Source: a virus. From it: a DNA stretch of 20,002 nucleotides. The notes under the pieces were generated by a model that was not told where the DNA came from, ran no database searches, and worked only from the letters and a program-made list of their open reading frames with translations. The translations under genes were made by a program, and so were the position numbers. The DNA is taken from the IMG/VR virus record IMGVR_UViG_3300021165_001687, positions 1 to 20,002 of that record. One strand, given 5' to 3'. Positions 1,141 through 19,499 of this stretch are shown piece by piece (the first letter of the stretch is position 1; the number at the start of each line of letters is the position of its first letter).

Positions 1141-3026
1141 GTATAACGATTAATCAACAACCTTTAGGATTAACCCCTTCAAATGCGTATCATATTTACA
1201 ACGCATCTTCAACCCTAACAGGACAAACAGATTTTAGGTATGTGTTTGATGTATGGGTAAACCCATTTCAATCTACAGCAGTAAAATTAGCCCGACTAAA
1301 AGTTCAACCAAATACAAGTGGTAGGGGTATAATCAATATTGAAACCATACTACAATCTTGGGTAGTTGGAAACGCAAGAAGTGAATACCCCCAAGTAATA
1401 TCAGGGGGCACTAATTCATCAGTTACAATACCAACAGGATTTATTGCCAACAACTACAATTTTAGTTTTTCCAACGCATTTAATACCAATTCAAACTATG
1501 AATTACAACCCCATATTTTGGATTACAGAGTGTTAGTAGGTGAGCAGTATAGTGTATCAGGTGTAACGACTTTATCTATCCCCACAAACCCTTCTTTACC
1601 CACATCAACTTTTTCTACATCAGGTTCAACACAAGCATCCACTTATTCGGGAACACCAAATACAATTAACTGGTCTAACGCTGGTTCAAACGCAAGGAAC
1701 TATTCAAGTGGTATTACACAGGGGGTTACTTTTACACACACGCAGTCAGGTGGAACATTAATACAATCAGGTTCAACAACAGGTACAAGTGGTTCATACT
1801 TAGCATCCGTATCCCCATCCACAGGTGATTACTTTGTAGTCACTGAAAAATATAGTGGGGTTCAATTTGTTTGGAGATGGAATGTTGACAACACAGGTTG
1901 GACATTACTTTCAACAGTATACCCAAATAACGCAGCGAGCATTTATCAACCAACAGATATTACTATTTGGCCTGGCGTTCAGGATGTTAATAAAAATTGG
2001 AATTATTACCAAACACTTTCATCACAGTCAACAAACCCTAATGGTTTAGATAACCACCAATATTGGGAAGCATATCAATTCAAATTATTACCATATTCAC
2101 AGTTAAATAGTTATACACCTGGTAGATTTTTACAACCCTTTGGACCTGAAATAGAACAATCGGTTTTGAACGATGCTGTAACACAAGAGTTTTTCAGTGC
2201 GGAAACAAGGTATAGATGGTATCACCCTGATTGTCCATTATTAGTTTCAAATATCATAGGTCAAAACCAACTTTACAATAATCCAATATCGGGGGTTACT
2301 GTATCTTTTAGAATACCAAATCAACAATTTTTAGATGTTAGTTATTTACCTACAAGTTCAGGGGTTACACCATTGGATACTTCAGTTTACCAAGACCCTA
2401 AAACAAGAATTGGTTATTGGAATTTACACCCCCTATTCAAGGATATTCAATCACTTTACGCTGAAGATTTTACAGACATTTTTGTGAACCCTTATGGAAC
2501 AGGAGACGAACTTTCAATAACTGGTAGTGGTGTTGGTGAGATTGTAAGATACAAAATATTACCTGCTAATTGTTTGAGTGACCCTATACATTTCTTTTAC
2601 CTTACAAGAAGTGGTAGTTGGGATACATATACTTTTGACAGAAAAAATGTTAGAAAACTGAACCAGAAAAAAGATACATATTCACAAGGGGGTATTAGAA
2701 ATAACTCTATATTCAATCCATTTGATAACACCCAAAGAAAAGTAATATATGACAATGATTTAATTGAAACAGTTACGGCTCAAACGAATTGGGTAGACCC
2801 TAATGAAACCCCCATTATAGAAGAGATTTTTAATTCAACAAGAGTTTATATTATTAAGGACTATAGTTTCAATTATGATGTATCAATACCGTATCAACCT
2901 TACTTAATTCCTATTAATATTTTAGACAATTCATTTGAAGAGTTTACTGGTAGGTATGGTAAAGTATTTCAATACACTTTCAACTTTGAATATAATCCTT
3001 TCCAAATGTATAGAACCAATTTGTAA
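1137..3026 (+). CDS. Putative tail/baseplate structural protein
   Basis: The 629-residue protein resembles large structural proteins encoded before the tape measure gene in Bacteroidota phages. The N-terminal 100 residues are beta-rich (YRYVFDVWVNP-like strand, then a GRGIINIETILQSWV segment). Residues about 150-240 form a Ser/Thr/Gly-rich low-complexity insert (repeated SGST and GTSG), which may be an exposed loop. The C-terminal third is rich in aromatic residues and polar strands. There is no signal peptide, membrane segment or enzymatic motif. It starts inside the previous gene's stop (ATGA) and its own TAA overlaps the next ATG, so the three genes are translationally coupled. The exact position in the tail (hub, distal tail or wedge) is not known. 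Confidence 0.55.
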   Translation: MSITINQQPLGLTPSNAYHIYNASSTLTGQTDFRYVFDVWVNPFQSTAVKLARLKVQPNTSGRGIINIETILQSWVVGNARSEYPQVISGGTNSSVTIPTGFIANNYNFSFSNAFNTNSNYELQPHILDYRVLVGEQYSVSGVTTLSIPTNPSLPTSTFSTSGSTQASTYSGTPNTINWSNAGSNARNYSSGITQGVTFTHTQSGGTLIQSGSTTGTSGSYLASVSPSTGDYFVVTEKYSGVQFVWRWNVDNTGWTLLSTVYPNNAASIYQPTDITIWPGVQDVNKNWNYYQTLSSQSTNPNGLDNHQYWEAYQFKLLPYSQLNSYTPGRFLQPFGPEIEQSVLNDAVTQEFFSAETRYRWYHPDCPLLVSNIIGQNQLYNNPISGVTVSFRIPNQQFLDVSYLPTSSGVTPLDTSVYQDPKTRIGYWNLHPLFKDIQSLYAEDFTDIFVNPYGTGDELSITGSGVGEIVRYKILPANCLSDPIHFFYLTRSGSWDTYTFDRKNVRKLNQKKDTYSQGGIRNNSIFNPFDNTQRKVIYDNDLIETVTAQTNWVDPNETPIIEEIFNSTRVYIIKDYSFNYDVSIPYQPYLIPINILDNSFEEFTGRYGKVFQYTFNFEYNPFQMYRTNL

Positions 3027-6000
3027 TGCTTCAATTAAGAGTAATATTAGACGGAACAATAGATTTTGTAGACCTGTATGGGGATGAAGGTATTAATTTC
3101 AATTATTCATTCGCAGAGATACAGGATATAACAAAGAAAAATTCTAATTTTTCACAGAGTTTTTCTGTACCAGGTTCAAAGAAAAATAACCAAATCTTTA
3201 ACCATTTTTATGACTTAAATAGTGTCAATCTTGACTATGATGTTAGAAGGGCTATTGACGCTACTTTGGTGTTTCAGGGACAAGAGATTTTTCAGGGATA
3301 CATAAGGCTTAATAGTGTAACCACACAAAAAAGAAAGATAGTTTACAACATCACTTTCTATGCTAATGTCGGTAAAGCAATTACAAACATTGGGGATAAG
3401 TTTTTGTTTGATTTGAACTATAGTGATTTGGCACACCCCTACAATGAACAAGTAATATTAGACAGTTTATATGATACTGACTTTAGTGGTGGAACTGAAC
3501 CATATAATGATGGTAGGGTCTATTTCTTATTAGCCCAATACGGATATGAATATGATGACAACGGAAATGTTCAAACAAGTTCAACCCCCATTATTGATTA
3601 TAGAAACGGAATTGAACCTGGTTATTTTGACAGTATCAGTACACCCTTAAGATATTACTACCTAAAGCCAGCAATCCAAATTAAATGGATGTATGAACAA
3701 ATTTTCTATGAGGCTGGTTTTGATATTAATAGTGATTTTTTTAATACCGCATATTTTGAAAGGTTCTTTTTACCCTTAACATTTAATAAAGATAGTTTGT
3801 ATCTTTCACAAGCCGTTAAACCCTGTTTCGCTTTTGATAACGACAACCAATCGGGGGGTACACAAATTAATCTATCGGCTGTCACTTGGCAAGGAGCACC
3901 ATTTACAGGTGTAACTCAAAACCTTTATAGGGTAGAACAATTACCAGAAACTTGTAATAATATAAATGCTCACCAATTTAGTAACTATACTTTTAGAGTT
4001 GAAAGCGATGGTTTCTACAGGATTAAATTTACTGCTAAAGGTTTCAACAGTGAGCAGTATAGGGATAGTATAAATTTAGATGCTCTTTACAGAATTAACC
4101 TAAATGAAATTGTGACAGGTCCAAATGGTCTATCTGGTTCAACAATATTCGCATACCCAAGTATCAATACTTATTCAACACTTGGTGCTGGTTTTTCTTT
4201 TCAAGCAGGTAGAGTTTTTACAGTATATCTTTCAAGTTTGTATGATTATTCTTGGGATTTAGATATTGACCAGGGAATTGGAACAGCAATTTTTACACAA
4301 TTCGGTATGGAAATACTTGATGGTCCAAGATTTATTCTTGGTAATGTAGATTACAAGCAGGAATTTCCCCCTGATGAAATAAAACAAATTGACTTTATTA
4401 CTTCAATAAATAAAGCATTCAATCTTATTGTTGTAGAAGACAAGACAAAAGAAAATACCTTTAGAGTTGAACCATTAATTGATTTTATTGGTAAGGGGGA
4501 AACATTAGATTGGACTTACAAAGTTGATAGAGATAGTAACATACAACTTGAACCAACAACCAATATATTCAACGGAACATTAAATTACTTAAATTCACTT
4601 GACAGAGATTACGGTAATAACGAGTTTAATAAACGCTCTAATAAGATTTTTGGAACAAGACAAATTAACCTTGACCAGGACTTTAAGAACAATGATATAA
4701 CTTTTAATTTTATTACAGGAAACAGGGTTGATATAACTTTGAATAACCTGTCAGTCCCAAATGTAACAATACCTGTTTATTTTGTGACTATTGAAAATGA
4801 CAATGAAGGAATTGTTGAGTTATCTTTTAATGCGAGAAAAACTTTACCTAATTTGTCTTTTAGGGGATTAAACTTACCTGCTAAAAATGTAGGGTTTATT
4901 AACGCAAGTGGAACTACAACTGTTAATAATTTTTACCTTGAGCAGAACCTTGTTAATATGTTTCCAATATCAAATAGATATACAACATATCCATTTGGTA
5001 TAACTGGTTTTACACACGCTATCAACTTTGACAAAAGAGACAGGTTTGATTTGGTTGAGTATGACTTTACACAGAGTGAAGATTTTTATGACATTTACTA
5101 TAATGAGTATAAAGAAGATTTAACCAATGAAGAAAATAGAGTTTACAGAGCGGTGGTATATCTAACCCCCCAAGAAATTCAAAACCTTGTTGGTAACGAA
5201 AAAATCTTAATTGACAATACCCCTTTCCGTATTAATAAAATTACGAATTATTCATTATTGAAACCATCAAAAGCCAATGTTGAATTAATTAAGTTGACTG
5301 TAGATTATAGCCCCCATAGAAAAAAATGTTACACCTTAACTGCTTGTGATGACCCTGCGGATATTATTTATACAAACACTGACTTAAATTATACCATTTG
5401 GGCTTATGTAGGTAAGAAGGTAAAAATTGGGGAATTTTGTTATGAGATTGAAGAAGTAACCTGTGATGATAGTTACCCCTATGAAAGAATAGAAGTACCT
5501 TTTCAAAACAATAGTTTTATTCCTTTGTTTTATGACGATTGTGACTGTTTAATACCGATAGATGATGTTGATATTACCAATGACTTTGTAACCCCACCAG
5601 TCCCTACGCCCACACCTTCATCAGGTTCAACTTTCTACTATTACATTATTGAAAGTTGTGAGATAGCAGAACAAGCACTTATTCGTTCAACCATATTACT
5701 TCAAATCGGTAGTGGTATATTTTATAGAGGTGAGTGTTGGTTTGTATTCGCTCAAACAAGTTTGGTTAATACCAATGACTATTTCGGTCCTTATTTTGAC
5801 GACTGTGTTGATTGTATTAATAATCCGCCAACACCAACCCCCACGGCATCCATAACACCAACACCCACGCCCACAACATTGGGTTGTCCTTGTATAGAAT
5901 ATTTGGTTGAAAATAGAGAAGCATTTTCTACAAATGTTGATTATACAGATTGTTATGGAATACCACAAACAATAACTTTATTACCTGATTTTTCAATTAA

Positions 6001-6439
6001 CATTTGTTGTTGTGAAGGCACTATAACAAGTGATTGGGGAACAATAAGTGAACTTGGACCTGATGCTTGTCAACCTGTTCCAACACAAACATTAACACCA
6101 TCGGTAACAAGCACACCAAACCCAACTCCTACCCCAACCAAAACACCTGGTTTACCAACACCAACCCCGTCTGTAACCCCTACTTGTGGATTTAAGTTAT
6201 GGGTAATTCAGGTATGTAATTTCACTTGTGTTGGTGGTATATGTGCTTGTGAGGATAGCACAACAGAAATAGTTTACACAAAATGTAATGTGACTGACTT
6301 GACTGACCAATTCACAGAAATATATGATACACCAAATCTTATTTCACCTTGGCTTGGTGATTTTCAAAGAAACGGAAGTATATGGAACAGTTATGGTTCA
6401 GGTGTAAGTTTGGTTTGTAATATTGGAGGACCTTGTTAA
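3026..6439 (+). CDS. Large tail/baseplate protein with C-terminal Cys-rich display modules
   Basis: This 1137-residue protein has two parts. Residues 1 to about 760 form a beta-rich tail protein. Its N-terminus (FVDLYGDEGINFNYS, then SFSVPGSKKNNQIFNHF) is a pattern I recognise from Bacteroidota phage tail/baseplate proteins. From about residue 770 there are at least four small cysteine-bearing modules: a CYTLTAC...GEFCYEI...FYDDCDC module, a related IIESC...GECWFVF...YFDDCVDC module, a module with VDYTDCYG and CCCEGT, and a terminal module framed by cysteines. Three Pro/Thr linkers separate the later ones (near residues 855-868, 932-952 and 1016-1054). The start overlaps the previous stop (TAATG). 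The C-terminal part is probably exposed and used for host binding or decoration, but no ligand can be named. Confidence 0.6.
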   Translation: MLQLRVILDGTIDFVDLYGDEGINFNYSFAEIQDITKKNSNFSQSFSVPGSKKNNQIFNHFYDLNSVNLDYDVRRAIDATLVFQGQEIFQGYIRLNSVTTQKRKIVYNITFYANVGKAITNIGDKFLFDLNYSDLAHPYNEQVILDSLYDTDFSGGTEPYNDGRVYFLLAQYGYEYDDNGNVQTSSTPIIDYRNGIEPGYFDSISTPLRYYYLKPAIQIKWMYEQIFYEAGFDINSDFFNTAYFERFFLPLTFNKDSLYLSQAVKPCFAFDNDNQSGGTQINLSAVTWQGAPFTGVTQNLYRVEQLPETCNNINAHQFSNYTFRVESDGFYRIKFTAKGFNSEQYRDSINLDALYRINLNEIVTGPNGLSGSTIFAYPSINTYSTLGAGFSFQAGRVFTVYLSSLYDYSWDLDIDQGIGTAIFTQFGMEILDGPRFILGNVDYKQEFPPDEIKQIDFITSINKAFNLIVVEDKTKENTFRVEPLIDFIGKGETLDWTYKVDRDSNIQLEPTTNIFNGTLNYLNSLDRDYGNNEFNKRSNKIFGTRQINLDQDFKNNDITFNFITGNRVDITLNNLSVPNVTIPVYFVTIENDNEGIVELSFNARKTLPNLSFRGLNLPAKNVGFINASGTTTVNNFYLEQNLVNMFPISNRYTTYPFGITGFTHAINFDKRDRFDLVEYDFTQSEDFYDIYYNEYKEDLTNEENRVYRAVVYLTPQEIQNLVGNEKILIDNTPFRINKITNYSLLKPSKANVELIKLTVDYSPHRKKCYTLTACDDPADIIYTNTDLNYTIWAYVGKKVKIGEFCYEIEEVTCDDSYPYERIEVPFQNNSFIPLFYDDCDCLIPIDDVDITNDFVTPPVPTPTPSSGSTFYYYIIESCEIAEQALIRSTILLQIGSGIFYRGECWFVFAQTSLVNTNDYFGPYFDDCVDCINNPPTPTPTASITPTPTPTTLGCPCIEYLVENREAFSTNVDYTDCYGIPQTITLLPDFSINICCCEGTITSDWGTISELGPDACQPVPTQTLTPSVTSTPNPTPTPTKTPGLPTPTPSVTPTCGFKLWVIQVCNFTCVGGICACEDSTTEIVYTKCNVTDLTDQFTEIYDTPNLISPWLGDFQRNGSIWNSYGSGVSLVCNIGGPC
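5590..6180 (+). repeat. Pro/Thr linker repeats in the tail protein gene
   Basis: Three runs of ACN-CCN codons (about 5590-5632, 5821-5880 and 6070-6180) encode PTPTP-type linkers between cysteine modules. The 18-mer CCTACGCCCACACCTTCA at 5603-5620 recurs exactly at 13955-13972 in another gene. Confidence 0.8.
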
Positions 6440-6458
6440 TAATATTTCATAATAGGAT
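6438..6458 (+). promoter_or_regulatory. AATAATATTT box before the tape measure gene
   Basis: AATAATATTTCATAATAGGAT ends directly at the ATG at 6459. It shares its first ten bases with the boxes at 8584 and 17110. It also contains a purine-rich AGGA close to the start, which may assist ribosome binding. Whether it is a promoter or a translation-initiation element cannot be decided from the sequence. Confidence 0.35.
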
Positions 6459-8573
6459 ATGGCACAAAAAGAATTAGTTTTCAAAGTAAAAGTAGTCAAC
6501 GAAAGCGGGGACATTGTAGAACAAACCGCTAAGTCGTTTGAGGACTTAAATAAGTCAGCATCGTCCCTGAAAAAGGAATTAGAAAAAAGTGACTTGGGTA
6601 GTGAGAAATTTAACAAACTACAAAAGGAACTTAAGAATACTGAAGGGGCTATAGAAAGCGCTAAAAATAAAACAACCCCCCTATTACAAAGGTTCAGTGA
6701 AATGCCAGGTCTTCTTGGAACTGTATCACAATCTTTACAGGGTTTAGGTCAGGGGTTCAAGGCTTTAATTGCTAACCCTGTAGGTGCTGTCATAGCGGCT
6801 ATCGCTGTAGTGTTTGGCGTGTTGTATAAGGCGTTAACTCGTACCGATGAAGGTATGGATAAGGTCAACCGAATAATGGCTAAATTTGGGGCTATTTTAG
6901 ACCCCGTTATGGAGGCTATTGGTGCGGCTGCGTTATTGATTGCTGACTTTGTTGAAACAGCACTTGACGGGTTCACATCTTTAATTCAACTTATACCAGG
7001 TATGGGTGAAGAGATGAAGGCTGCGGCTGAAGAGGGGGGTAGATTGGCGGATGAACTTGATAGTATCCAAGAAGCGGAAAGAGACCTTGCTGTGGCTCGT
7101 AGTGAACAAAACAAACAACTCGCTAAGGCAAGGGAATTATTAAGTGATAGTAATGCGTCATTAGCAGAAAGAAAAGCGGCTCTTGCTGAAGTAAGAGCGG
7201 GTGAAGAAAAACTGGCTAAACTTGAAGAAAATACGGCTCGTAGAAAACTACAGGCTATCAAAGATGAAATTAAACTCAAAGGTGCGAGTGAAGAAAGATT
7301 AAACGCTCAGGCTCAGGCTGAAATAGCATTGAACCAAGCACAGGAAAATACCGCAGCGGTAACAAGGAAACTTAACAAACAGGATGAGCAGTTAGATAGG
7401 GAAGCAGAACAAAGACAAAAAGAACTGGCTGAAAAAAGAAAACAAAGAGTAGAGGAAAGAAAGAAACAGGCTGAAGAGGCTGCGTCTTTTGAAAAGGCTT
7501 TAGATTTAGCAGTAATCACAGACAAGTTTCAAAGAGACCAACAGATATTGGCTAATGAAAAAGCGGCACAACAAAAACAATTAAGTCAGTTAAAAGTTAC
7601 CGCAGATAAAAGGGCTGAATTACAACTACAAATAGAACAGGTTTATCAAAACAAACTGAAGGAATTACAAGATGCTAAAAAGGCTGAAGATGATAAAAAG
7701 GCTGAAGAAGACAAGAAAAAAGAACAGGAAAAAACTGCTGAAAAAATTGACGCAAGAAAAAGAGAATTAGATGCCTTACTTCAATTATCAAGTGAAAAAG
7801 GTATAGAGGGTTTAGAAGATACAAAAAGATACCTTGATGAGTTAATGGCTATTGAATTGTCTGCGGCTAATATAAGTGAGGCTGAAAAACAGGTAATAAG
7901 GGACAAATACAATAAAGCAGAAATAGATGCGGAGAAAAAGGTTTTTGATGAAAAAAAGGCACTTAATCGTAAACTTATAGATGAAGAAATTAAGATGGTT
8001 CAAGCGGCTGCTCAAGGAGCCAGTGATTTAGCAGTAATTTTTGGAGCAGAAACCGAGGCGGGTAAAGCAGCCGCAACGGCTGCTGCCATCCTTAACACCT
8101 ATGCTGGTGCGGCTAAGGCTCTTAATGATGAAACAATCCCCAATACTTTCTTGCGTATTGTAGCCGCAGGTGCGGTCATCGCAACTGGTCTAAAGCAGGT
8201 CGCTACTATTAATAAAGTTTCCACATCAATACCTACACCAAATATCAGTAGAAAACTTGCTTCAGGGGGTTATGTATCAGGTAATGGTAGTGATACAAGT
8301 GATAGTATCACAGCGTCTTTATCCAATGGTGAATTTGTAATGAATAGTCAATCCACAAGTTTGTTCCGTCCTTTACTTGAAACTATGAACCAACAGGGTA
8401 GACAATTTTCAACAGCATCTACAGGGGTTCAGGGAATATCTACTATTGATGCGGCTATGATGGGTTCATTAGGTAGTATAGGTCAAACCCCCATTAAAAC
8501 TTATGTTGTAGCCAGTGAGGTTACAACAGTCCAACAGATTGAAAGACAAAATATGTCAAGGTCTGTGATGTAA
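6459..8573 (+). CDS. Tape measure protein
   Basis: This 704-residue protein would span the tail lumen and set tail length. It has a short beta N-terminus (LVFKVKVVNESGDIVEQTAKSFEDL), a hydrophobic segment near residues 103-125 (ANPVGAVIAAIAVVFGVLY), and a second hydrophobic region around 145-165. A long charged heptad-rich coiled coil full of Ala, Glu and Lys runs roughly from 190 to 530, followed by another Ala-rich hydrophobic stretch near 565-590. It ends in a Gly/Ser region with SGGYVSGNGSDTSDS and LSNGEFVM, a C-terminal pattern common in tape measure proteins. Using the usual rule of about 0.15 nm per residue, it would fit a tail near 100 nm. At 704 residues it is a mid-sized family member. 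Confidence 0.88.
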   Translation: MAQKELVFKVKVVNESGDIVEQTAKSFEDLNKSASSLKKELEKSDLGSEKFNKLQKELKNTEGAIESAKNKTTPLLQRFSEMPGLLGTVSQSLQGLGQGFKALIANPVGAVIAAIAVVFGVLYKALTRTDEGMDKVNRIMAKFGAILDPVMEAIGAAALLIADFVETALDGFTSLIQLIPGMGEEMKAAAEEGGRLADELDSIQEAERDLAVARSEQNKQLAKARELLSDSNASLAERKAALAEVRAGEEKLAKLEENTARRKLQAIKDEIKLKGASEERLNAQAQAEIALNQAQENTAAVTRKLNKQDEQLDREAEQRQKELAEKRKQRVEERKKQAEEAASFEKALDLAVITDKFQRDQQILANEKAAQQKQLSQLKVTADKRAELQLQIEQVYQNKLKELQDAKKAEDDKKAEEDKKKEQEKTAEKIDARKRELDALLQLSSEKGIEGLEDTKRYLDELMAIELSAANISEAEKQVIRDKYNKAEIDAEKKVFDEKKALNRKLIDEEIKMVQAAAQGASDLAVIFGAETEAGKAAATAAAILNTYAGAAKALNDETIPNTFLRIVAAGAVIATGLKQVATINKVSTSIPTPNISRKLASGGYVSGNGSDTSDSITASLSNGEFVMNSQSTSLFRPLLETMNQQGRQFSTASTGVQGISTIDAAMMGSLGSIGQTPIKTYVVASEVTTVQQIERQNMSRSVM

Positions 8574-8583
8574 AATTTAGAAA

Positions 8584-8601
8584 AATAATATTTAGAATAA
8601 G
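8584..8601 (+). promoter_or_regulatory. AATAATATTTAG box before the head protease gene
   Basis: AATAATATTTAGAATAAG abuts the ATG at 8602. It matches the box before the portal gene (17110-17127) at 16 of 18 positions, with the same zero distance to the start codon. This suggests a shared late promoter or translation-initiation signal. Confidence 0.4.
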
Positions 8602-11163
8602 ATGCGTATTGTTGAACTTGTAATTGAAGATGAACAGGGATTTGTTGATGGGATAGCCCTTGTACAGAGACCCGCACACGAAAGTAATTGGTTGACCTTC
8701 GCAGAAGAGCAGTTGACTGAATATAGATACATTAATGAAGAATTAGGTAGTGAAAAAGGTGCTGAACTTGCGGAGTTACTTGTTCAAATTGGTGAACCTG
8801 AAGAAGACCTTTTAGACCAGGGATTTGAAATTTATAGGGTTGAAGAAATTGACCCAAAATATAGGTTCGCATCTGGTAAAGTTACAAAGTCAGTTCCAAC
8901 AGAAAACGGACCTGTAAGAATTATTAGTGACCCTAACAACACAACTGCTGACCCAATACAGGGGGCTGTTGGTGTTGAATTAGTTAGATACAAATATGTC
9001 GGTCCAAGAGATAACAAAAACAGAGATTTTTGTAGAATAATGTTGGAAGAAAATAGGGTGTTTAGAAAAGAAGATATAGACCAAATGACTATTGAAACTG
9101 CTAACCCCCAATTTGGAAATTATGATATATTCACCTGGCGTGGTTCTTTTAATTGTAGACATAAGTTCGTTAAGGTAATATACAGACCTAAAGCAGGTGA
9201 AGGTATATTGAACGATGCGTCTGTTAGAAGGGGTAGAATTGGACAGGAAGAAATACCAACAGAAAGCACTACAACCATCGCAACGGCTAACGCACAAAAT
9301 GTGGGTTATGTTAGAGAACAAATTAAAAGAAGATTAGCCAAAGGTATACCTGTTCCTGGTGTAACAATCAGTAGTGATGTTGATAACCTAACATCACAAC
9401 AAGTTTTAGATATTGGATTACAACTTGGTATTACCTTATTATTCGCAGAGGTTGGTGAAAGGGGTGCTATCAAGGATAGTAAAAAGGCTCCAAAAAGTGA
9501 TACTGCCAATAAGAGACCCACAGGTCAGGGTACTGCTCGTGGGGACGCATCGGGTAAAAGGGGTGCTGAAGTGAGTGAGGCTGTTGAAAACAACTTAAGA
9601 GAAAAAGTAAAAGAATTTAACGATAGATACGCTGATAAAGTGAAGTGGGGAAAACTTACTTTAGGAATGCTCAAGTCAGTTTTTTTAAGGGGTAAGGGAG
9701 CGTATAATGTTTCACACAGTCCTGTAGTAAAAAGTGCTGACCAATGGGCGTATGCCAGAGTCAACGCATTTATCCTATTATGGCGTTCGGGCAGACCTGG
9801 CAACGAGAAGTATGTAGGTGACAATGACCTATTACCAGCAGACCATCCAAAGTATACAACCAATTCTAAAATGGGTTTTGAAACCACAAGACAATATTGT
9901 TCAACTACACCTTGTGAACAAATGGGACAAGCACAAAAAAATTCCTGTAAGAAACAAGGGTTTAGAAATTGTTACAAGGCGGAGTTTGGTATACTTGATG
10001 TTATAGATGGTATTCCGTTGTTTGATAACTTACCAGACGCTCTTAAAATGGGTGAATTGATAGGTTGTGAAGGTTATCATACACACGACTACAACGGAGT
10101 AACAGGATATATGCCTTGTTTCACACACCCTGTAGATTTATCAATCAGTATTTCAGGTGTTGATGGTAATGGTAGTTCAGGTTGTGGATGTATGAGTGAT
10201 GATGTTGAAGCAGAATATTTTGTTGACTACCCTTTTGATGAGTGTCTAAAAGACCAAATTAAAAGATATGGTTCAAAGGAGATAGCCCAAAAAGTATGTG
10301 GGAAAATAAAAGCGTTATATGGTTCTAAATTAGAGTTTGAAACTTATGATGACTACCCCCAATATATTGTAGAAAATGCTAAAAAGGCTTTGAAGTATAT
10401 TGAAGAAACAGGAAACCCACAGGATTGTTTAACCCCCGTTGGAAGACGAAGGGTTAGTGATTTAGCATCGGGTAAACCCATATCAGGGGACATACTTAAA
10501 AGGATGAAAGCCTACGCTGACAGACACAAAAAAGATTTGTTAGCATCAAAAAGTTTTGATGACGGGTGTGGACTGCTCGCTTGGTATTCTTGGGGATTAG
10601 ATGAAACAGGAAGGGTTGAAGAATACCTTGAAAGAAAATTAAAACAAATTGAAGAAGAGTTTGAAATTCAGGTTTCAGGTTTATCCCCTTATGTAGACCA
10701 AACAGGGTTGGAAAAAAAACCAACTATTGTAGAAAGGAAATTTAATTACGACTACGAAAAACAGGAAATAACAGGTGCGGCTATTATACCAAATAAGTTC
10801 ATCTTACGAAGAGATGAAATGGGAAACCCCTACTATGTATATTTTAGTGAAGAAACAACAAAGAAATTAGCAGAGGGTTTTTTCAAACAAAAACAGGTAT
10901 CCCTAAAAGAGGCTTTGAATATTGAACACACAGATGAAAAAGCAGAAGATGCTTTTATTGTGGAAAGTTGGATAGTCAATGACCCTGAAAAGGATAAGTC
11001 AAAATCTTTAGGTTTAGATTACCCTATTGGTACTTGGGTAATAACAGCCAAAATTGATAACCCCCAATTATGGAAAGACATTAAGAACGGAAAGTATAAT
11101 GGTTTTTCAATTGAAGGTTATTTTTTAGAAAAAATAATATTTAATAATATAAACAAACAATAA
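8602..11163 (+). CDS. Multidomain capsid morphogenesis protein with XkdF-like protease domain
   Basis: The 853-residue protein strings together several head-associated segments. Residues 1-35 (VELVIEDEQGFVDGIALVQRPA) match the N-terminus of phage XkdF-type proteins. Residues about 125-195 (YVGPRDNKNRDFC, then WRGSFNCRH) resemble a Cys/His segment seen in phage minor head and protease proteins. Residues 345-395 (KWGKLTLGMLKSVFLRGKGA, then WAYARVNAFILLW) match a conserved phage domain of unknown function. Residues 480-570 are Cys-rich (GCEGYHTHD, GCGC, DECLKDQIKRYGSKEIAQKVCG). Residues 585-685 hold a helical segment with CLTPVGRRRVSDLASGKPIS. Residues 705-845 form the protease-like domain, with His775 in NIEHTD and Ser836 in GFSIEG as likely catalytic residues. 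It lies directly before the scaffold-like and capsid genes, as expected for a prohead protease. Confidence 0.72.
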   Translation: MRIVELVIEDEQGFVDGIALVQRPAHESNWLTFAEEQLTEYRYINEELGSEKGAELAELLVQIGEPEEDLLDQGFEIYRVEEIDPKYRFASGKVTKSVPTENGPVRIISDPNNTTADPIQGAVGVELVRYKYVGPRDNKNRDFCRIMLEENRVFRKEDIDQMTIETANPQFGNYDIFTWRGSFNCRHKFVKVIYRPKAGEGILNDASVRRGRIGQEEIPTESTTTIATANAQNVGYVREQIKRRLAKGIPVPGVTISSDVDNLTSQQVLDIGLQLGITLLFAEVGERGAIKDSKKAPKSDTANKRPTGQGTARGDASGKRGAEVSEAVENNLREKVKEFNDRYADKVKWGKLTLGMLKSVFLRGKGAYNVSHSPVVKSADQWAYARVNAFILLWRSGRPGNEKYVGDNDLLPADHPKYTTNSKMGFETTRQYCSTTPCEQMGQAQKNSCKKQGFRNCYKAEFGILDVIDGIPLFDNLPDALKMGELIGCEGYHTHDYNGVTGYMPCFTHPVDLSISISGVDGNGSSGCGCMSDDVEAEYFVDYPFDECLKDQIKRYGSKEIAQKVCGKIKALYGSKLEFETYDDYPQYIVENAKKALKYIEETGNPQDCLTPVGRRRVSDLASGKPISGDILKRMKAYADRHKKDLLASKSFDDGCGLLAWYSWGLDETGRVEEYLERKLKQIEEEFEIQVSGLSPYVDQTGLEKKPTIVERKFNYDYEKQEITGAAIIPNKFILRRDEMGNPYYVYFSEETTKKLAEGFFKQKQVSLKEALNIEHTDEKAEDAFIVESWIVNDPEKDKSKSLGLDYPIGTWVITAKIDNPQLWKDIKNGKYNGFSIEGYFLEKIIFNNINKQ
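11133..11150 (+). promoter_or_regulatory. AATAATATTT box inside the end of the protease gene
   Basis: AATAATATTTAATAATAT lies in the last codons of the 853-residue gene, 28 nt before the scaffold-like gene's ATG. It shares its first ten bases with the other boxes. Here it also encodes protein, which weakens the case. Confidence 0.3.
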
Positions 11164-11178
11164 ACAAAAAAATTATTT

Positions 11179-11967
11179 ATGACCCGTGAAGAAATAAAAA
11201 ATAGAATTGCTAACCTGTTAGGTTTCAATTCTTACACATTTGGTTCATACAAAACGACTGAAGGAGTTGAATTGAAAATGGAAGGTGAATTAGAAATTAA
11301 CCGTCCAATTTATGTAATCACGCCAGAAGGCGAGTTACCAGCACCAGAGGGAGATTATGAATTAGAAAATGGTATGACCGCTAAAGTCAAAGAAGGTATG
11401 TTAGCAGAAATAATCCCTTCAATGAAAATAGAGGTTGAAGAAAACGAAGACGAAGTAGAACAGATGGCTTCCGCTACATTAGCAGATGGTACAAAAATCA
11501 CCAATAAACAAGGTGATGCTATACCTTTTGAAGTAGGTCAGGTTCTATATGTTATCACTGATGAAGGACAAGAAATTTTAGCACCTATGGGGCAACACAC
11601 TACCGATAGTGGTATCGTGTTGACTATCGCTGCTGAAGATGGAGTTATCACAGGATTAAAAAGACCTGATGAAGAAGGTGAAGGCTCATTATTTGAACAA
11701 GCAGAACATCCTGATACAGAAATGGGAAAAGACCCAGAAATGAAGATGGTTGATTTTGTGGAAGAGTTAATGGGGGCTTTAGAGAAAATGACTGAAGAGT
11801 TGAAGAAAATGAAAAGTAAGCAAGAAGAAATGGAAATGAAATTTTCTAAATTTTCTGCTCAACCAGCAGGTGAAAAAGTATACGAAAGAAAAAATCTTTC
11901 AGCAGTTTCAACTTTAGGTTTCAGTAAGGCTGAAGCAATCTTAAAATTAAGACAACAATATCAATAA
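11179..11967 (+). CDS. Putative capsid scaffold or decoration protein
   Basis: The 262-residue acidic protein sits immediately before the major capsid gene, the usual place for a scaffold. Its N-terminal two thirds hold two versions of one beta motif. Around residues 27-80 is IYVITPEGELPAPEGDYELENGM; around 98-160 is LADGT..., then LYVITDEGQEILAPMGQHTTDSG. Residues about 195-235 are a Met/Glu/Lys coiled coil (EELMGALEKMTEELKKMKSKQ-like), and the basic C-terminus (KAEAILKLRQQYQ) could be the capsid-binding helix of a scaffold. No catalytic motif is seen. Position and coiled coil favour a scaffold; a head decoration role remains possible. Confidence 0.62.
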   Translation: MTREEIKNRIANLLGFNSYTFGSYKTTEGVELKMEGELEINRPIYVITPEGELPAPEGDYELENGMTAKVKEGMLAEIIPSMKIEVEENEDEVEQMASATLADGTKITNKQGDAIPFEVGQVLYVITDEGQEILAPMGQHTTDSGIVLTIAAEDGVITGLKRPDEEGEGSLFEQAEHPDTEMGKDPEMKMVDFVEELMGALEKMTEELKKMKSKQEEMEMKFSKFSAQPAGEKVYERKNLSAVSTLGFSKAEAILKLRQQYQ

Positions 11968-12003
11968 TAAAAAAAAACAACTAAATAAAACACCCAAAAC
12001 AAT

Positions 12004-12963
12004 ATGGAAAAAAAATTAAAAAAACACGGCTTTTCTTTTGATTTGAGCGGGTTAAGCACCTATACTGATGAAGTAGGGGGTTTACTCCTTGCTGAAGCAA
12101 TCACAAAGGCTAAAACCGTTGAACTTGGATTTGTTCAACAGGGTATTCAAGGAACACAGGCGATGAACTTATTGTCATCTACTTTGAATGTTCAAAATGG
12201 AACTTGCGGCTGGAATAGTTCAGGTTCAACAATTTTCACACAAAGAAATTTGGCTATCTGTCCGTTCAAGGTAAATGAGGCACTTTGTCCCCAAGACCTC
12301 GCGTCTTATTGGGCTGGTCAGTTCTTAAACAAAGGGTCTTACCACGAGGAAGTTCCCTTCGCTGAACAAATCGCATCACTTAAGGTGGAACAAATCAAAC
12401 TTTTCGTGGACACGACGCTTTGGACCGCTTTACCAGCGTCTTCAGGTGGAACGGCTTGTTTCACAGGATACAAATACATCTTCAACAATGTATCAGGTAA
12501 CACAGGTGTGAATATCGTTTCATCACCAACAACTGCTTTCACATCATCAAATATGTTACAAATTGTAGACGAGGTTATCGCTGCTGTACCTGAACCTATT
12601 CAGGAATACACTGACCTTCTTTGTATGATGAGCATCGCTAACTACAGAAAGTACACTGTAGGTCTTCGTCAGGCTAATTTCTTCCACTTTGGAACTGAAA
12701 CTGCTGAAGCGGCTACAGAATTTATCACTTTCCACCCTGGTACTAACATCCGTGTGGTAGGTGTTCCTGGTATGGTTTCAACTAACCAAGTAGTAGTAGG
12801 TCCAGCAAGTGAACTTATCATCGGTGTAACTCTTTTGGAAGACACTGAAAGATTAGAAATGTTCTACTCAAAGGACTTTGATGAAGTTCGCATTCGTGCT
12901 AATTTCGGTTTCGGCGGAAATATTCCGTTCCCTGAAAACTGGGCTTCAAACGGATTGTCCTAA
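12004..12963 (+). CDS. Major capsid protein (HK97-like)
   Basis: The 319-residue protein follows the Bacteroidota-phage major capsid pattern. It has a short basic N-terminus, then YTDEVGGLLLAEAITKAKTVELGFVQQGI, a CGWNSSGSTIFTQRNL segment, and the hallmark CPFKVNEALCPQDLASYWAGQFL. These are followed by GSYHEEVPFAEQIASLKVEQI and a C-terminal domain with PGTNIRVVGVPGM. Its length is within the family range and no long N-terminal propeptide is evident. Codon choice differs from neighbours: many C-ending codons (ATC, TTC, GAC, AAC) and CTT for Leu, as expected for the most highly expressed virion gene. The A-rich leader with almost no purine-rich Shine-Dalgarno fits a Bacteroidota host. Confidence 0.88.
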   Translation: MEKKLKKHGFSFDLSGLSTYTDEVGGLLLAEAITKAKTVELGFVQQGIQGTQAMNLLSSTLNVQNGTCGWNSSGSTIFTQRNLAICPFKVNEALCPQDLASYWAGQFLNKGSYHEEVPFAEQIASLKVEQIKLFVDTTLWTALPASSGGTACFTGYKYIFNNVSGNTGVNIVSSPTTAFTSSNMLQIVDEVIAAVPEPIQEYTDLLCMMSIANYRKYTVGLRQANFFHFGTETAEAATEFITFHPGTNIRVVGVPGMVSTNQVVVGPASELIIGVTLLEDTERLEMFYSKDFDEVRIRANFGFGGNIPFPENWASNGLS

Positions 12964-12991
12964 TAAACTTTAACAAATATAATATACAAAG

Positions 12992-13534
12992 ATGAGTAAT
13001 TATTCAGCGTGTTTACAGACGGCATCCATCAATTTAGGATGTGCTTCAAATGTTGGAGGAATTGTTAAGGCTTACTTCGGTGGTAATATTACAGGTGTAA
13101 CAACTAACTCCGCTGGTGCGGTTACAGGGGTTACTGGAACAGGTACTATCTACACCTACGAAGTACAAAAACAAACCTCGTCTTTGGCAGAAACTTTCAA
13201 TAGTTCCCTTGAAAATGGGACAGTATTTTATCAACAGGACTTGACCCTTGTTTTCCACAAGATGGACCAAGACAAGAGAAACCAGTTGAAATTACTATCC
13301 GTTAATCGTGGATTGATTGGATTTGTTGAAGATAACAACGGAACAATTTTTATGTTAGGTGAGGACAGTATAATTGGAGGAGGTTACCTTTCTGCTGGTT
13401 CTGGCGCAAGCGGAACAGCATTTGGGGACAGTAACTCTTATTCTGTAACCTTGACATTTTTCAGTAGCGACCCTATGACTACTGTCAGTGGTTCATTAAG
13501 TTCAGTAGTATCTGGATTAAGTATTAACCCATAA
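12992..13534 (+). CDS. Putative major tail tube (virion structural) protein
   Basis: The 180-residue protein resembles tail-tube-like structural proteins of Bacteroidota phages. The pattern includes IYTYEVQKQTSSLAETFNSS, ENGTVFYQQDLTLVFHKMD, a KRNQLKLLSVNRGLIGFVEDNNGTIFMLG core, and GGYLSAGSGASGTAFGDSNSYSVTLTFFS near the end. It has no enzymatic motif. It lies 28 nt after the major capsid gene and directly before the strong terminator, so capsid and tube protein would be produced as one abundant unit. Its codon use is intermediate between the capsid gene and the rest. A head decoration role cannot be excluded. Confidence 0.6.
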   Translation: MSNYSACLQTASINLGCASNVGGIVKAYFGGNITGVTTNSAGAVTGVTGTGTIYTYEVQKQTSSLAETFNSSLENGTVFYQQDLTLVFHKMDQDKRNQLKLLSVNRGLIGFVEDNNGTIFMLGEDSIIGGGYLSAGSGASGTAFGDSNSYSVTLTFFSSDPMTTVSGSLSSVVSGLSINP

Positions 13535-13551
13535 AAACAACTTGAACAAAG

Positions 13552-13575
13552 TGGGGGGGAAACCCCCCATTTTTT
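13552..13575 (+). terminator. Rho-independent terminator after the capsid / tail-tube unit
   Basis: TGGGGGG (13552-13558) pairs with CCCCCCA (13563-13569) around a GAAA tetraloop and is followed by six T. This is a textbook intrinsic terminator 17 nt after the stop at 13534. Only 16 nt separate its T run from the next ATG at 13592. Confidence 0.9.
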
Positions 13576-13591
13576 AGCCTAAAAATCAATT

Positions 13592-14815
13592 ATGCCAAAA
13601 AGAGGTATTGGAGCAAGAATAACTTGGGGACACCCACAAAAGGGTATCAAAAAATATACGCACGGACTTTTCAATGAAACACCTGAATTGTCTAAAGAAG
13701 ATAGGATGCGTATCATCGCTGAAAAGATGAGACCCTATGATAGTGAAAAAGCACTTGAAAAAGTTAATTTCATCGCAGTTGGAGCACCCTTTCAGGCATT
13801 GACCCCAACACCTTCACCAAGTGGGGGTAATGTTAGTCCCACACCCACACCCACGAGTACTCCAACACCATCGGTTGGATTTAACTGTATTTGGAATACA
13901 CAACAAAGTTTGTGGGAAAATAACAACAATGAATGGCAGGATTGTAACCCATTACCTACGCCCACACCTTCACCATCACCAAGTAGTTCGTCAACCACAC
14001 CTACGCCCACCCCTACGCCAAGTTCAACACCATTACCTGGTTACGCAGAAGCGTTGACCTATATGGACGCAGTCCTTGCTGAGGGAGGTTATTTGGATGC
14101 GTCTATGAGTGCTGCTACGATACAATTATTTACTGACTTAAATAGTGATAATTCGTTTTCTAATTTAGATGTGTTCTATCCGTTTATGGGTTCAAATATA
14201 AATGCTTTCAAGGTAAATGGTAAAAATCCTGGTACTCACAATCTAACTTATTCAGGTGGTATCGCAATAAATCCATCAGGTATTACAGGTAATGATATTA
14301 ACGGTTTCGCTGATACAAATTACAATGAAAACAACCACGCTCAGGTAAATAATTTACACATTGGTGTATATTGTAGAACAAACTTTGATGAAAGTGGATT
14401 TGATATGGGAGCGGTATCCACAGGTGTTGGAAATGATAGTAAAACATTATTAGGTCTTCGTGATGGTGATAACATATATGGTTCTGTTGAAATTTCAAAT
14501 GTTACTACTGTTCCCTCACTCACGGCTAATACTGATAGCACTGGTCATTATATTATTTCAAGGACAGGTTCTACTTCTACAACCCTATTCAAAAATGGTT
14601 CAACATTAGATACTGATACTACTGTAAGCACAGGGGAAAAAGGAACAAGAAATTACTATATCTTGGCAAGAAACAACGCAGGAACTGCTGACCTATTCAC
14701 AAAACGACAACTTACATTTGTCCATCTTGGTAAGGGTCTTACGACAACAGAAGCATCTAACCTTTCAACACACATTAACACTTTCTTAACAAGCCTAAAC
14801 AGAAACACATATTAA
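13592..14815 (+). CDS. Putative fibre/adhesin with Pro/Thr linkers and LamG-like C-terminus
   Basis: The 407-residue protein has a basic N-terminal segment of about 65 residues (MPKRGIGARITWGHPQKG), possibly a virion-attachment part. Then come a Pro/Thr linker (about 70-94), a mini-module with two cysteines (FNCIWNTQQSLWENNNNEWQDC), and a second Pro/Thr/Ser linker. The C-terminal region of about 255 residues looks like a concanavalin/LamG-type beta-sandwich found in phage adhesins: VFYPFMGSNINAFKVNGKNP, then GIAINPSGITGNDINGFADT, VYCRTNFDESG, and a final LTTTEASNLSTHINTFL helix. It is probably a receptor-binding or carbohydrate-binding surface protein. Domain identity is by pattern only. Transcription must read through the upstream terminator or start inside it. 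Confidence 0.55.
   Translation: MPKRGIGARITWGHPQKGIKKYTHGLFNETPELSKEDRMRIIAEKMRPYDSEKALEKVNFIAVGAPFQALTPTPSPSGGNVSPTPTPTSTPTPSVGFNCIWNTQQSLWENNNNEWQDCNPLPTPTPSPSPSSSSTTPTPTPTPSSTPLPGYAEALTYMDAVLAEGGYLDASMSAATIQLFTDLNSDNSFSNLDVFYPFMGSNINAFKVNGKNPGTHNLTYSGGIAINPSGITGNDINGFADTNYNENNHAQVNNLHIGVYCRTNFDESGFDMGAVSTGVGNDSKTLLGLRDGDNIYGSVEISNVTTVPSLTANTDSTGHYIISRTGSTSTTLFKNGSTLDTDTTVSTGEKGTRNYYILARNNAGTADLFTKRQLTFVHLGKGLTTTEASNLSTHINTFLTSLNRNTY
13802..14042 (+). repeat. Pro/Thr linker repeats in the fibre gene
   Basis: Two low-complexity ACN/CCN/TCN tracts (about 13802-13875 and 13947-14042) encode PTPTP linkers around a 23-residue W/C-rich module. They share the exact 18-mer at 13955-13972 with the tail gene at 5603-5620. 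Confidence 0.8.
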
Positions 14816-14816
14816 T

Positions 14817-15053
14817 ATGGAAGTAGGATTATTAACACAAGAACAAAAAGATTTATTAGTTGGAAACTGGTTACGACCTGATTGGTATTTTAATCCAGTA
14901 CAAGATGGGGAAACACCCCCAAATTGGATTATTTCAACTATTGAAATGTATGAGAATACTAACCCCGATTTTAGTTGGGTAAGTGAATTACCTATTATTG
15001 AATATGTAAAACCAAGACCTGAAAGTCATTTTGACCAGTTCTTCCTTAAATAA
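14817..15053 (+). CDS. Small conserved phage protein (LTQEQ...YFNPVQD type)
   Basis: The 78-residue product has a pattern I recognise from small proteins next to virion fibre genes in many environmental phages: GLLTQEQKDLLVGNWLRPDWYFNPVQD, followed by WIISTIEMYENTNPDFSWVSELPIIEY. Its function is unknown to me. It starts one base after the preceding stop, so it is very likely co-translated with the fibre gene, and it could be a fibre chaperone or a small virion component. It is soluble, with no signal peptide or membrane segment. Confidence 0.6.
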   Translation: MEVGLLTQEQKDLLVGNWLRPDWYFNPVQDGETPPNWIISTIEMYENTNPDFSWVSELPIIEYVKPRPESHFDQFFLK

Positions 15054-15066
15054 TATCTAAATAAAA
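15049..15066 (+). promoter_or_regulatory. AATAATATCTAA box before a fibre gene
   Basis: AATAATATCTAAATAAAA lies 11 nt before the ATG at 15078, followed by an A-run. It is one base different from the AATAATATTT core. The minus-strand leader upstream of 19499 has a similar ATATCTAAACTAAAAAAAA string. Confidence 0.3.
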
Positions 15067-15077
15067 AAAACATAACA

Positions 15078-15890
15078 ATGTCTTCATTAACATCCACACA
15101 AATTAACAACACATATCCTTCTTTGTTGAAACTTTCAACATCAACAACGGGTATAACCAGCACCCTTCAATCCGTTGAAGATGGATTAGGGGGAGATACT
15201 GGTCTAAAAATAAAACAGGACTACATCGGTGGTTCTTCACTACTTCCTTTCAAGAAACAGGATACTCAATATACTATGGGTTATGGAACGGGAACTATTA
15301 CTAGTGGTGGTGGAACTGCTTTTCCTGCTGGTTCACATAATTTAACTTTCGGTATGTTTTACTATGACAGAGGGGATATATCTTATTCCGCATTTTCATA
15401 TACCATAGGAACAACAACATCAACAAATGATGTTATTGAAATGGGTCTTTATACAACTGATTATAGTCCATACGGTTTAGTTCCAAAAGACCAACTTATT
15501 TCTTGGACATTGAGTGGTAGTGAACTTAACGCAACATTTCAAAAAAAGGTTTTACCATCAAATGTAACTTTAGAGGAAGGTGGAATTTACTATGTGATGT
15601 ATGTAATAACAAACCCAACACTTGTAACCCCTACAGTTAGATTTAGAAACACTGGTACCTCTCAAATTGGTTTTTTAAGTGCTATTTTTGCTGGTTGGGC
15701 TTTAGATACTACAAACAATGGTTATTTGAACAGTATCAAAGGACCAACATCTTTATCACAAGGTAATGTGTATTTTCAGGGAATATCAGGACCACTTCCA
15801 AGTTCATATAGTGCGGCAAGTTTTAATGGAACTATAGCGACAAGCGGTGCCCCTACTATTGGTTTTGTTTTTAACCCTGCTTATATCTAA
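15078..15890 (+). CDS. Putative fibre / virion surface protein
   Basis: The 270-residue protein begins with a motif I associate with phage structural proteins: LTSTQINNTYPSLLKLSTSTTG, then LQSVEDGLGGDTGLKI. A DGLGxDT element of this kind usually precedes fibre domains. The remainder is beta-rich with many Tyr, Gly, Ser and Thr residues and no cysteine, compatible with a jelly-roll or fibre head (FGMFYYDRGDISYSAFSYTI, YYVMYVITNPTLVTPTVRFR). No enzymatic motif is seen. It lies among the fibre genes and probably forms part of the host-recognition or capsid-surface set. Confidence 0.5.
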   Translation: MSSLTSTQINNTYPSLLKLSTSTTGITSTLQSVEDGLGGDTGLKIKQDYIGGSSLLPFKKQDTQYTMGYGTGTITSGGGTAFPAGSHNLTFGMFYYDRGDISYSAFSYTIGTTTSTNDVIEMGLYTTDYSPYGLVPKDQLISWTLSGSELNATFQKKVLPSNVTLEEGGIYYVMYVITNPTLVTPTVRFRNTGTSQIGFLSAIFAGWALDTTNNGYLNSIKGPTSLSQGNVYFQGISGPLPSSYSAASFNGTIATSGAPTIGFVFNPAYI

Positions 15891-15896
15891 AATCAA

Positions 15897-17093
15897 ATGT
15901 TATACATTAAGAGGGGACAAACCAATAATATGGTTGTGAGTGTTTCACAACACAAAACGCTTGCTAACCCCTTTTATTTATTTTCATTTCAAAATATTTT
16001 GTCTAATACCTTTGTAAGGTTTTATCCACAAAATACTTCCACAAATACAGACAGGTATGACCAGTTCACCTTTGTGGAAACAGCCACCCCACTATCGGGT
16101 CAAACACCACCACAAGAAACTTTTGAATACGAGGGACAATACTATTATTCAATTTATGAAATGGTTAGTTCAGCAACGACAAATCCCCAATATGCTACGA
16201 GTAAATTAGAAGAGGGTAGAGCATTTGTTTCGGGTCAAACAGTCGGTAGTTTTTACCCTGATACTTTTATCAGTGACAATGAAATTAATGAAAACTATAT
16301 CTTCTTAAGTGACCCTGAAGAGCGTTTGTTTGTAACCCCATCAGTAACCCCTTCACCAACCCCCACGCCTTCTATAACCCCGACAATAACAAGTACACCC
16401 ACAACCACTCCAAGCCACACACCAACAACAACACCAACAACAACCTTGACAAGCACCCCAACACATACACCAACACCTTCACCTACCACACCAGTTTCAT
16501 TACTTACTTTCAATGTTTTTTCAGGTCAAAGTCAGTATTTGGCTTGTAATAGTGGAACATCTGTTACAATATACGCACAAGATTTAGGTAACTGTGGGGG
16601 TTGTGCTCCACTGACCTGTTGGGCTTGTCTTACAACAAGTCAATTTGTTTACGCTAATTCAGGTTTGACTGAATATGTGACTGATGGTTTCTATATGAAT
16701 TATATGAGCCCACCTTCAAGTAACCCTGGTATTTGGAGAATATATGACAGTAAACCACAGGGTGGTGGATTTGCTGGTGGTTGTGTTCCGTCGCCTTCAC
16801 CAACTCCTTCATCACCTGCTAACCATCCATACTCTTGGACAGGTTATGTTTCACCAGACAGTTATTGTGAGGCCTTCAGTGGAACAAATAGGTCTGTTGT
16901 AACCCTTTATGGTAATGACAGTTGCTTTGATAACAATCTCGTTTTCTTTGATAGTCCTTCAGGTGGTAATTCAACTAACTTGTTTGGAAACTACGCATTT
17001 CAGGGATGTGGTGGTGGTAACCCTTGGCTTGGTATGATAGCAGATTATGACGGTAGGGTTCAGGTATATGCGTTAATTAGTGCTTTTTGTTAA
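15897..17093 (+). CDS. Virion protein with Pro/Thr linkers and two Cys-framed modules
   Basis: The 398-residue protein has a conserved phage N-terminal domain (residues 1-145: YIKRGQTNNMVVSVS, NPFYLFSFQN, RYDQFTFVE, YYYSIYEM) that I recognise from structural proteins of environmental phages. It is followed by a 55-residue Pro/Thr linker (146-200). Module B (about 201-296) carries LACNSGTSVTIYAQDL, several Cys, LTEYVTDGFYM and a closing GGC. A short PSPSPTPSSP linker leads to module C (about 311-398), with YCEAFSGTNRSVVTLYG, LVFFDSPSGG, LFGNYAF and a final AFC. Modules B and C share an outline with the last module of the 1137-residue tail protein. It is likely a surface-displayed binding protein; the ligand is unknown. 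Confidence 0.55.
   Translation: MLYIKRGQTNNMVVSVSQHKTLANPFYLFSFQNILSNTFVRFYPQNTSTNTDRYDQFTFVETATPLSGQTPPQETFEYEGQYYYSIYEMVSSATTNPQYATSKLEEGRAFVSGQTVGSFYPDTFISDNEINENYIFLSDPEERLFVTPSVTPSPTPTPSITPTITSTPTTTPSHTPTTTPTTTLTSTPTHTPTPSPTTPVSLLTFNVFSGQSQYLACNSGTSVTIYAQDLGNCGGCAPLTCWACLTTSQFVYANSGLTEYVTDGFYMNYMSPPSSNPGIWRIYDSKPQGGGFAGGCVPSPSPTPSSPANHPYSWTGYVSPDSYCEAFSGTNRSVVTLYGNDSCFDNNLVFFDSPSGGNSTNLFGNYAFQGCGGGNPWLGMIADYDGRVQVYALISAFC
16332..16496 (+). repeat. Pro/Thr linker repeat
   Basis: This low-complexity run of ACN and CCN codons encodes 55 residues that are almost only Pro, Thr and Ser. It is the longest such linker in the window. Slippage or recombination among these tracts could change linker length. 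Confidence 0.85.
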
Positions 17094-19247: not shown

Positions 19248-19499
19248 TTAAATGTCCCTACCATATCTTTCCTTCACCCGCTCCCTGAACTGTTCGTATA
19301 CGGGTTTTTCAATATCATACCCAAGTTCGTGTAATATAAGTTTTGAATATGCTTCAAAGTGAGCATCTTGTGGCAACCAAGTACCGTTGTTTCTTAATTC
19401 CAAACAGGGTAAACATCTTTTTGTTATACCTTTAGCATTTTCCTTAAATTCCTGTTCTGGTTTTAGTTCACCACAGGTTATACAAATACGATAGTTCAT
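19248..19499 (-). CDS. Small zinc-ribbon protein, unknown function
   Basis: This is the only clear minus-strand gene. The 83-residue product has two CxxC pairs (Cys6/Cys9 and Cys29/Cys32) in CITCGELKPEQEFKENAKG...CLPC, the zinc knuckle found at the N-terminus of many phage HNH-type or DNA-binding proteins. The C-terminal half is helical (FEAYSKLILHELGYD, then YEQFRERVKERYG). No HNH catalytic triad follows, so it is not evidently a nuclease; a DNA-binding regulator is possible. Its A-rich leader (19500-19530) drives transcription away from the nucleotidyltransferase gene. It converges on the microprotein with 26 nt between stop codons. Confidence 0.6.
   Translation of the reverse strand: MNYRICITCGELKPEQEFKENAKGITKRCLPCLELRNNGTWLPQDAHFEAYSKLILHELGYDIEKPVYEQFRERVKERYGRDI

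Follow-up and report, generated by a model that had tools for sequence, protein, structure and literature searches.

How do genes for different parts of one virus particle come to carry the same kind of appendage, and what would such appendages do? The question arises from the window analysed here, which is an IMG/VR virus record in full (20,002 bases) and in which a tail protein (3026), a fibre (13592) and a protein at 15897 all bear Pro/Thr linkers and small modules behind their N-terminal parts.

The structural cassette of a phage occupies the window from about base 642 rightwards. It begins with a truncated neck protein (652), followed by two tail proteins (1137 and 3026) and a tape measure gene (6459) that adjoins the second of them. 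The prohead protease (Peptidase_S78_2, 853 aa, 8602–11163) is separated from the major capsid protein (12004, assigned by position and by homology in relatives) by a 262-aa open reading frame at 11179 that is scaffold-like by position. A phrog_19091 protein (12992), the fibre, a 270-aa protein (15078–15890), the 15897 protein and the portal (17128) complete the order. The N-terminus of the 3026 tail protein matches Nonlabens phages P12024S/L, and this likeness suggests a host among the Bacteroidota.

A truncated FAD-dependent oxidoreductase (DAO) fills bases 1 to about 641 and is fused to the truncated neck gene (1–694, with the join near 642). Over the 3337 bases that run rightwards from 1137, the window has the same sequence as contig L008, and the identity also extends leftwards to about 642, beyond which L008 runs into an intact neck gene and a terminase-side region. 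The left end of the window is therefore most likely a chimeric assembly join near 642. A separate peculiarity concerns the prohead protease, which has a long N-terminal part. Its residues 94–206 match the C-terminal end of portal family phrog_33693, apparently a domain common to, or transferred from, portals of other phages.

Linkers and modules of the three carriers

The first-pass annotation had claimed PTPTP linkers in three genes with unrelated N-termini. All three open reading frames are present as it gave them, and the claim holds: the motif [TSNV]P[TSNV]P occurs 9 times in the 3026 protein, 11 times in the 13592 protein and 8 times in the 15897 protein, against means of 0.35, 0.28 and 0.47 and maxima of 5, 3 and 4 in 2000 shuffles of the same protein. 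The remaining genes of the window contain the motif zero times, and the three proteins show no similarity to one another in BLASTP with low-complexity masking. The Pro and Thr codons of the linkers include all four synonymous codons, with a diversity like that elsewhere in the genes, which indicates that the linkers are not merely a DNA microsatellite and are kept at the protein level. Shuffles and codon diversity together rule out a chance or low-complexity artefact, and codon usage rules out microsatellite slippage as the whole story. No account of PTPTP or TPTPTP linkers in phages was found in the literature searched, which does not imply that they are absent elsewhere.

All features of the three carriers lie on the plus strand. 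The core of the tail protein (ancT, aa 1–767, 3026..5326) matches phrog_38559 (E=7e-16) and is 49.6% identical to its homologue in the relative L002. It is directly continued by the Cys-bearing module A (aa 768–842, 5327..5551). Beyond this, a first Pro/Thr linker (aa 854–869, 5585..5632), of low confidence in the AlphaFold model, leads to the Cys-bearing module B (aa 869–932, 5630..5821), a second (aa 931–955, 5816..5890) to module C (aa 953–1017, 5882..6076), which has a conserved Cys pattern, and a third (aa 1017–1055, 6074..6190) to the Cys-bearing terminal module D (aa 1054–1137, 6185..6436). AlphaFold models, built with alignments of relatives, show four beta-rich modules between low-confidence linkers, of which A (pLDDT ~75), C (~85) and D (~88) are ordered and B (~60) is weaker. 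Matches to the module A HMM are confined to ancT proteins. Since module A abuts the core and was seen only there, the exchangeable part of the protein begins after aa 854.

The fibre starts with a short anchor (ancR, aa 1–66, 13592..13789) that is kept in L002 and L040/L044. Two Pro/Thr linkers (aa 68–96, 13793..13879, and aa 118–151, 13943..14044) flank module W, a 25-aa segment (aa 96–120, 13877..13951) of the pattern NCxW...W..DC, and the protein ends in a C-terminal domain of aa 154–404 (14051..14803). That domain is matched by tblastn in Sinorhizobium and cyanobacterial phages and has no sequence match in the PDB. By eye it looks LamG- or lectin-like, a resemblance that no family supports. 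The annotation had described all the modules as small and Cys-bearing. Most are indeed Cys-rich; the description fits the fibre poorly, where cysteines mark just the 25-aa W/C motif and the large domain at the C-terminus is not rich in them.

The anchor of the 15897 protein (ancP, aa 1–143, 15897..16325) is beta-rich, with pLDDT mostly 80–93 over aa 1–112. A Pro/Thr linker (aa 145–203, 16329..16505), disordered in the model over about aa 115–196, connects it to module F (aa 202–296, 16500..16784), which is ordered over about aa 200–295 (pLDDT ~83). Module F contains a near-invariant core, YAQDLGNCGGCAPLTCWACLTTSQ, whose cysteine spacing (CX2CX4CX2C) could accommodate a metal or disulfide cluster. 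A Pro/Ser/Thr linker (aa 295–311, 16779..16829) with a similar counterpart in L050/L051 joins F to module G (aa 310–398, 16824..17090), which is not confidently modelled and which accompanies F in L050/L051 as well. Structure prediction thus agrees with the proposed architecture, giving an anchor, a disordered linker and F in the 15897 protein and four modules with intervening linkers in the tail protein. Each carrier has a conserved N-terminal part, one or more Pro/Thr linkers, seen in the sequence and as disorder in the AlphaFold models, and C-terminal modules.

The modules form at least 3–4 sequence families. Profiles group F with H and I (HHalign 85–94% for F–I and H–I) and B with E (HHalign 77%, E=2e-5), and the other modules A, C, D and G are isolated or have at most weak links, such as A–B and D–I. 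Grouping by profile is thus limited to some of the families, and a single module family is ruled out. Modules of the L062 contig, labelled M, appeared B-like by eye and received no support from profile comparison. The modules of the window match no Pfam family, the three full proteins are likewise without a Pfam match, no known CBM, lectin or LamG family is matched in Pfam, and a PDB sequence search with the window modules gave nothing credible. By tblastn, modules A–C and F–G have no match in 50,697 phage records, nor do module C alone and the 15897 anchor in annotated phages, and a scan of genome contigs found no relatives.

Gain, loss and exchange of modules among relatives

Relatives were gathered by pattern-seeded scans; many are fragments and none is complete. 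Their tail proteins vary at the C-terminus. The terminal module is D in the window and L009, and E takes the same place in L002, L012, L014 and L038; the L002 protein retains A, B and C and ends in E, not D. Copies of C number one in most relatives, two in L012 and in L040 and three in L059, and the L060 tail protein contains up to six module C matches. Among the relatives, A, B and E were seen on no carrier other than the tail protein, so that on present evidence not every module is mobile.

The 15897-type anchor varies in what follows it. L002 has a capsid protein 65% identical to that of the window; its anchor is 59% identical, and the protein ends at aa 143, without linker or module. The anchor is also bare in L007/L047, L040/L044 and L050. 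It carries a tag only in L042, an extra domain, linker and tag in L006, a linker and a DUF5122 propeller in L045 and L046, a linker and F in L049 and L054, and a linker followed by W, F and the fibre domain in L048 and L053, with the same order in the L055 fragment. The neighbouring 270-aa protein is kept in L002, L048 and L053 and was never found with a linker.

A fourth linker-bearing gene of the relatives lies upstream of the neck gene and outside this contig. Its 171-aa-type product is bare in L008, which is the same phage as the window, and in L009, L010, L015 and L016. Elsewhere it bears a linker and tag (L011–L013), a linker, H and tag (L014), a linker, a region without assignment and a tag (L038), a linker, propeller and F (L052) or a linker and the fibre domain (L072). 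A C-terminal peptide of about 25 aa (for example, YILDETGDILETEGGDLIEYEH) recurs in L011, L012, L013, L014, L038, L006, L042 and L050, mostly after Pro/Thr linkers and on at least two unrelated anchors.

The proposed arrangement of anchor, flexible linker and exchangeable module is therefore borne out, both by the disordered linker in the AlphaFold model and by relatives that gain, lose and swap modules. Such variation could also come about without benefit to the phage, if Pro/Thr-repeat DNA were a recombination hotspot and the modules were in-frame passengers without strong function. Linkers flank many module junctions, their length on one and the same anchor ranges from 28 to 297 residues among relatives, and bare forms are viable in nature, all of which this selfish or neutral spread would explain. 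Several observations make it very unlikely nonetheless. The window, L048 and L049 share every residue of the 24-aa core of F although 7–12 codons have changed synonymously, and outside the core the F modules of L048, L049 and L050 are only 37–51% identical to that of the window; the six cysteines of module C are invariant in a seven-sequence alignment; and the linker codons are diversified. Each of these points to selection on the protein level. In addition, some arrays of C (L057, L064) occur in genes without Pro/Thr linkers.

Exchange between genes had been set beforehand as the test on which the first-pass proposal would fail or survive, and it survives. Module W and the fibre C-terminal domain sit on the 15897-type anchor in L048 (E=3e-35) and L053, with E<=1e-12 for module W. 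F occurs on three unrelated anchors, namely the 15897-type, the 171-aa-type (L052) and a third anchor (L050/L051), and the PF17164 propeller on two, the 15897-type (L045, L046) and the 171-aa-type (L052). C is found inside 1137-type tail proteins as well, in L057 (at least six copies), L064, L070 and L071, the L057 carrier being homologous to the 1137 protein of the window (E=1e-22). In another phage group (L062, L066, L069), C ends the major tail protein after poly-Thr linkers; the L062 carrier matches the PHROG major tail protein phrog_1407 (E=1.4e-14) over aa 2–180. Relatives thus gain, lose, duplicate and replace modules and move them between structural genes. Poly-Thr linkers (TTTTTT) are an alternative linker type, present in L062:3345-5189, L066, L069 and L067, where they connect Cys-bearing modules of a major tail protein and of other proteins in different phages.

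The most instructive example is the L050 phage, whose L050, L070 and L072 are one contig. Portal, major capsid and 12992 proteins of this phage are 28, 28 and 30% identical to those of the window, whereas its F and G are 60 and 59% identical. It carries C, C and D on the 1137-type protein and F and G on the third anchor; its 171-aa-type anchor bears the fibre domain (E=1.1e-46), and its 15897-type anchor is bare. Homologues of five window modules are therefore all present, on different carriers. The F–G arrangement recurs in L051, a contig from another metagenome, which argues against an assembly artefact. Some payloads are more conserved than core genes between distant phages, and from their sequences F and G, conserved beyond the core proteins between the window and L050, are read as having spread horizontally. 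In L070:1897-4089 the 1137-type protein is split, with a front open reading frame that ends in the linker-borne C, C and D and a remainder that forms a separate 178-aa open reading frame.

Exchange between genes also bears on the view that these are ordinary modular receptor-binding proteins, each swapping its tip independently, with Pro/Thr linkers as convergent spacers and no common repertoire. A conserved N-terminus with a variable C-terminus is usual for such proteins (PMC8262889, PMC10684548). The fibre has this form: its N-terminal anchor is conserved, the end domain differs among the window, L002 and L040/L044, and the L002 fibre retains anchor, linkers and W in front of its different terminal domain. 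For the set of genes as a whole, this view is weakened by the sharing of modules across genes. The same modules occur on different unrelated carriers, including a major tail protein, bare carriers occur, single carriers bear several modules, and one phage may have more than one loaded carrier. Independent tip swapping is accordingly an unlikely account of the whole.

A probable shared repertoire of display modules and its known counterparts

The reading that probably accounts best for these observations is that the three genes carry accessory modules for display, most likely adhesive, drawn from a mobile repertoire that they share. Adhesion or display heads are suggested because the anchors persist bare, the linkers are long and disordered, and the payloads are probably of several folds yet alike in their attachment. 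A location on the virion is supported by gene context for the tail genes and by protein family for the L062 carrier. The modules would provide low-specificity extra adhesion to host surface glycans or to particles, with several sites adding up to avidity, and the linkers would keep them at a distance from the particle and allow in-frame fusions to differ in length. This supposes that each carrier is exposed on the virion, that the modules bind a ligand and that infection may benefit.

The major tail protein of phage lambda without its Ig-like C-terminal domain is about 100-fold less active, and tails still form (PMC8718954). The modules here could by analogy be structural clamps or a particle-stabilising decoration instead of adhesins. 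Disordered linkers of up to about 300 residues suit clamps poorly, however, and related carriers without modules exist, leaving clamps the least probable of the alternatives weighed. A bolder form of the repertoire idea is rather doubtful: a payload economy extending over the whole virion, in which uncultured phages of this sort would keep a common pool of modules whose inheritance is largely separate from that of the particle proteins, Pro/Thr or poly-Thr linkers would act as universal in-frame adaptors, and module F, through its CX2CX4CX2C pattern, would perhaps bind metal and so exploit host metal uptake.

The first-pass annotation knew of no described system with this exact arrangement. 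A claim that none exists would be too strong, in that promiscuous Ig-like domains, BACON repeats and domain mosaicism embody the same idea with other modules. Ig-like domains are reportedly spread over several virion proteins, and low-affinity surface binding is said to have been proposed for them. Promiscuous domains of this kind (Fraser et al. 2006, doi 10.1016/j.jmb.2006.03.043, cited in PMC8718954) are reportedly small accessory fusions to a variety of structural proteins that come and go between close relatives, in which they resemble the present modules. Both features are found here: C occurs on two kinds of tail protein and on a major tail protein, F occurs on three anchors, and presence varies among relatives. 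The modules differ in that they are largely Cys-bearing, belong to families of their own, are joined by Pro/Thr linkers and are exchanged among at least five carrier genes, and no Ig-like Pfam family matches the 3026, 13592 or 15897 proteins above the cut-off.

On tail proteins of gut phages, BACON domains form tandem repeats that move horizontally (PMC6949934), and they resemble the present case in being tail-associated, in their partly horizontal spread and in belonging to phages of Bacteroidota. Pfam finds no BACON domain (PF13004) in the window, and in the tail protein homologue from Nonlabens phage P12024S a BACON match at the C-terminus stays below threshold; the modules and linkers here differ from those of BACON-bearing tail proteins. 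Domain mosaicism, in which fragments are common to otherwise unrelated phage proteins (Smug et al. 2023, PMC10684548), is not known to include this linker-borne set, and what is seen here is one definable repertoire scrambled over virion carriers of uncultured phages. Modular Ig-like adhesins of gut phages conferred binding when displayed on another phage (PMC13370021). Their modularity is alike and their domains differ, and binding was shown there, while for the present modules it is an expectation. The payload of L045 and L052 belongs to a known family, the DUF5122 beta-propeller (PF17164), of which the window has none. By analogy, the present modules, which lie outside Pfam, would act in the manner of promiscuous Ig-like and BACON domains.

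These findings take the promiscuous-domain idea beyond single fusions of Ig-like or BACON domains. Here a definable repertoire, mostly Cys-rich and unclassified, passes between five or more structural genes, and also between phages with core proteins barely recognisable as kin. They give names and profiles to protein families that are absent from Pfam and without PHROGs annotation, and they raise the testable question of whether phages vary their adhesion by attaching one set of heads at several sites of the particle. Binding studies could, besides, use the modules and linkers directly as display parts.

One further open reading frame of the window runs opposite to the rest of the cassette. 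It lies on the minus strand at 19248–19499, encodes 83 aa with a CxxC...CxxC pattern and is possibly a zinc-ribbon protein.
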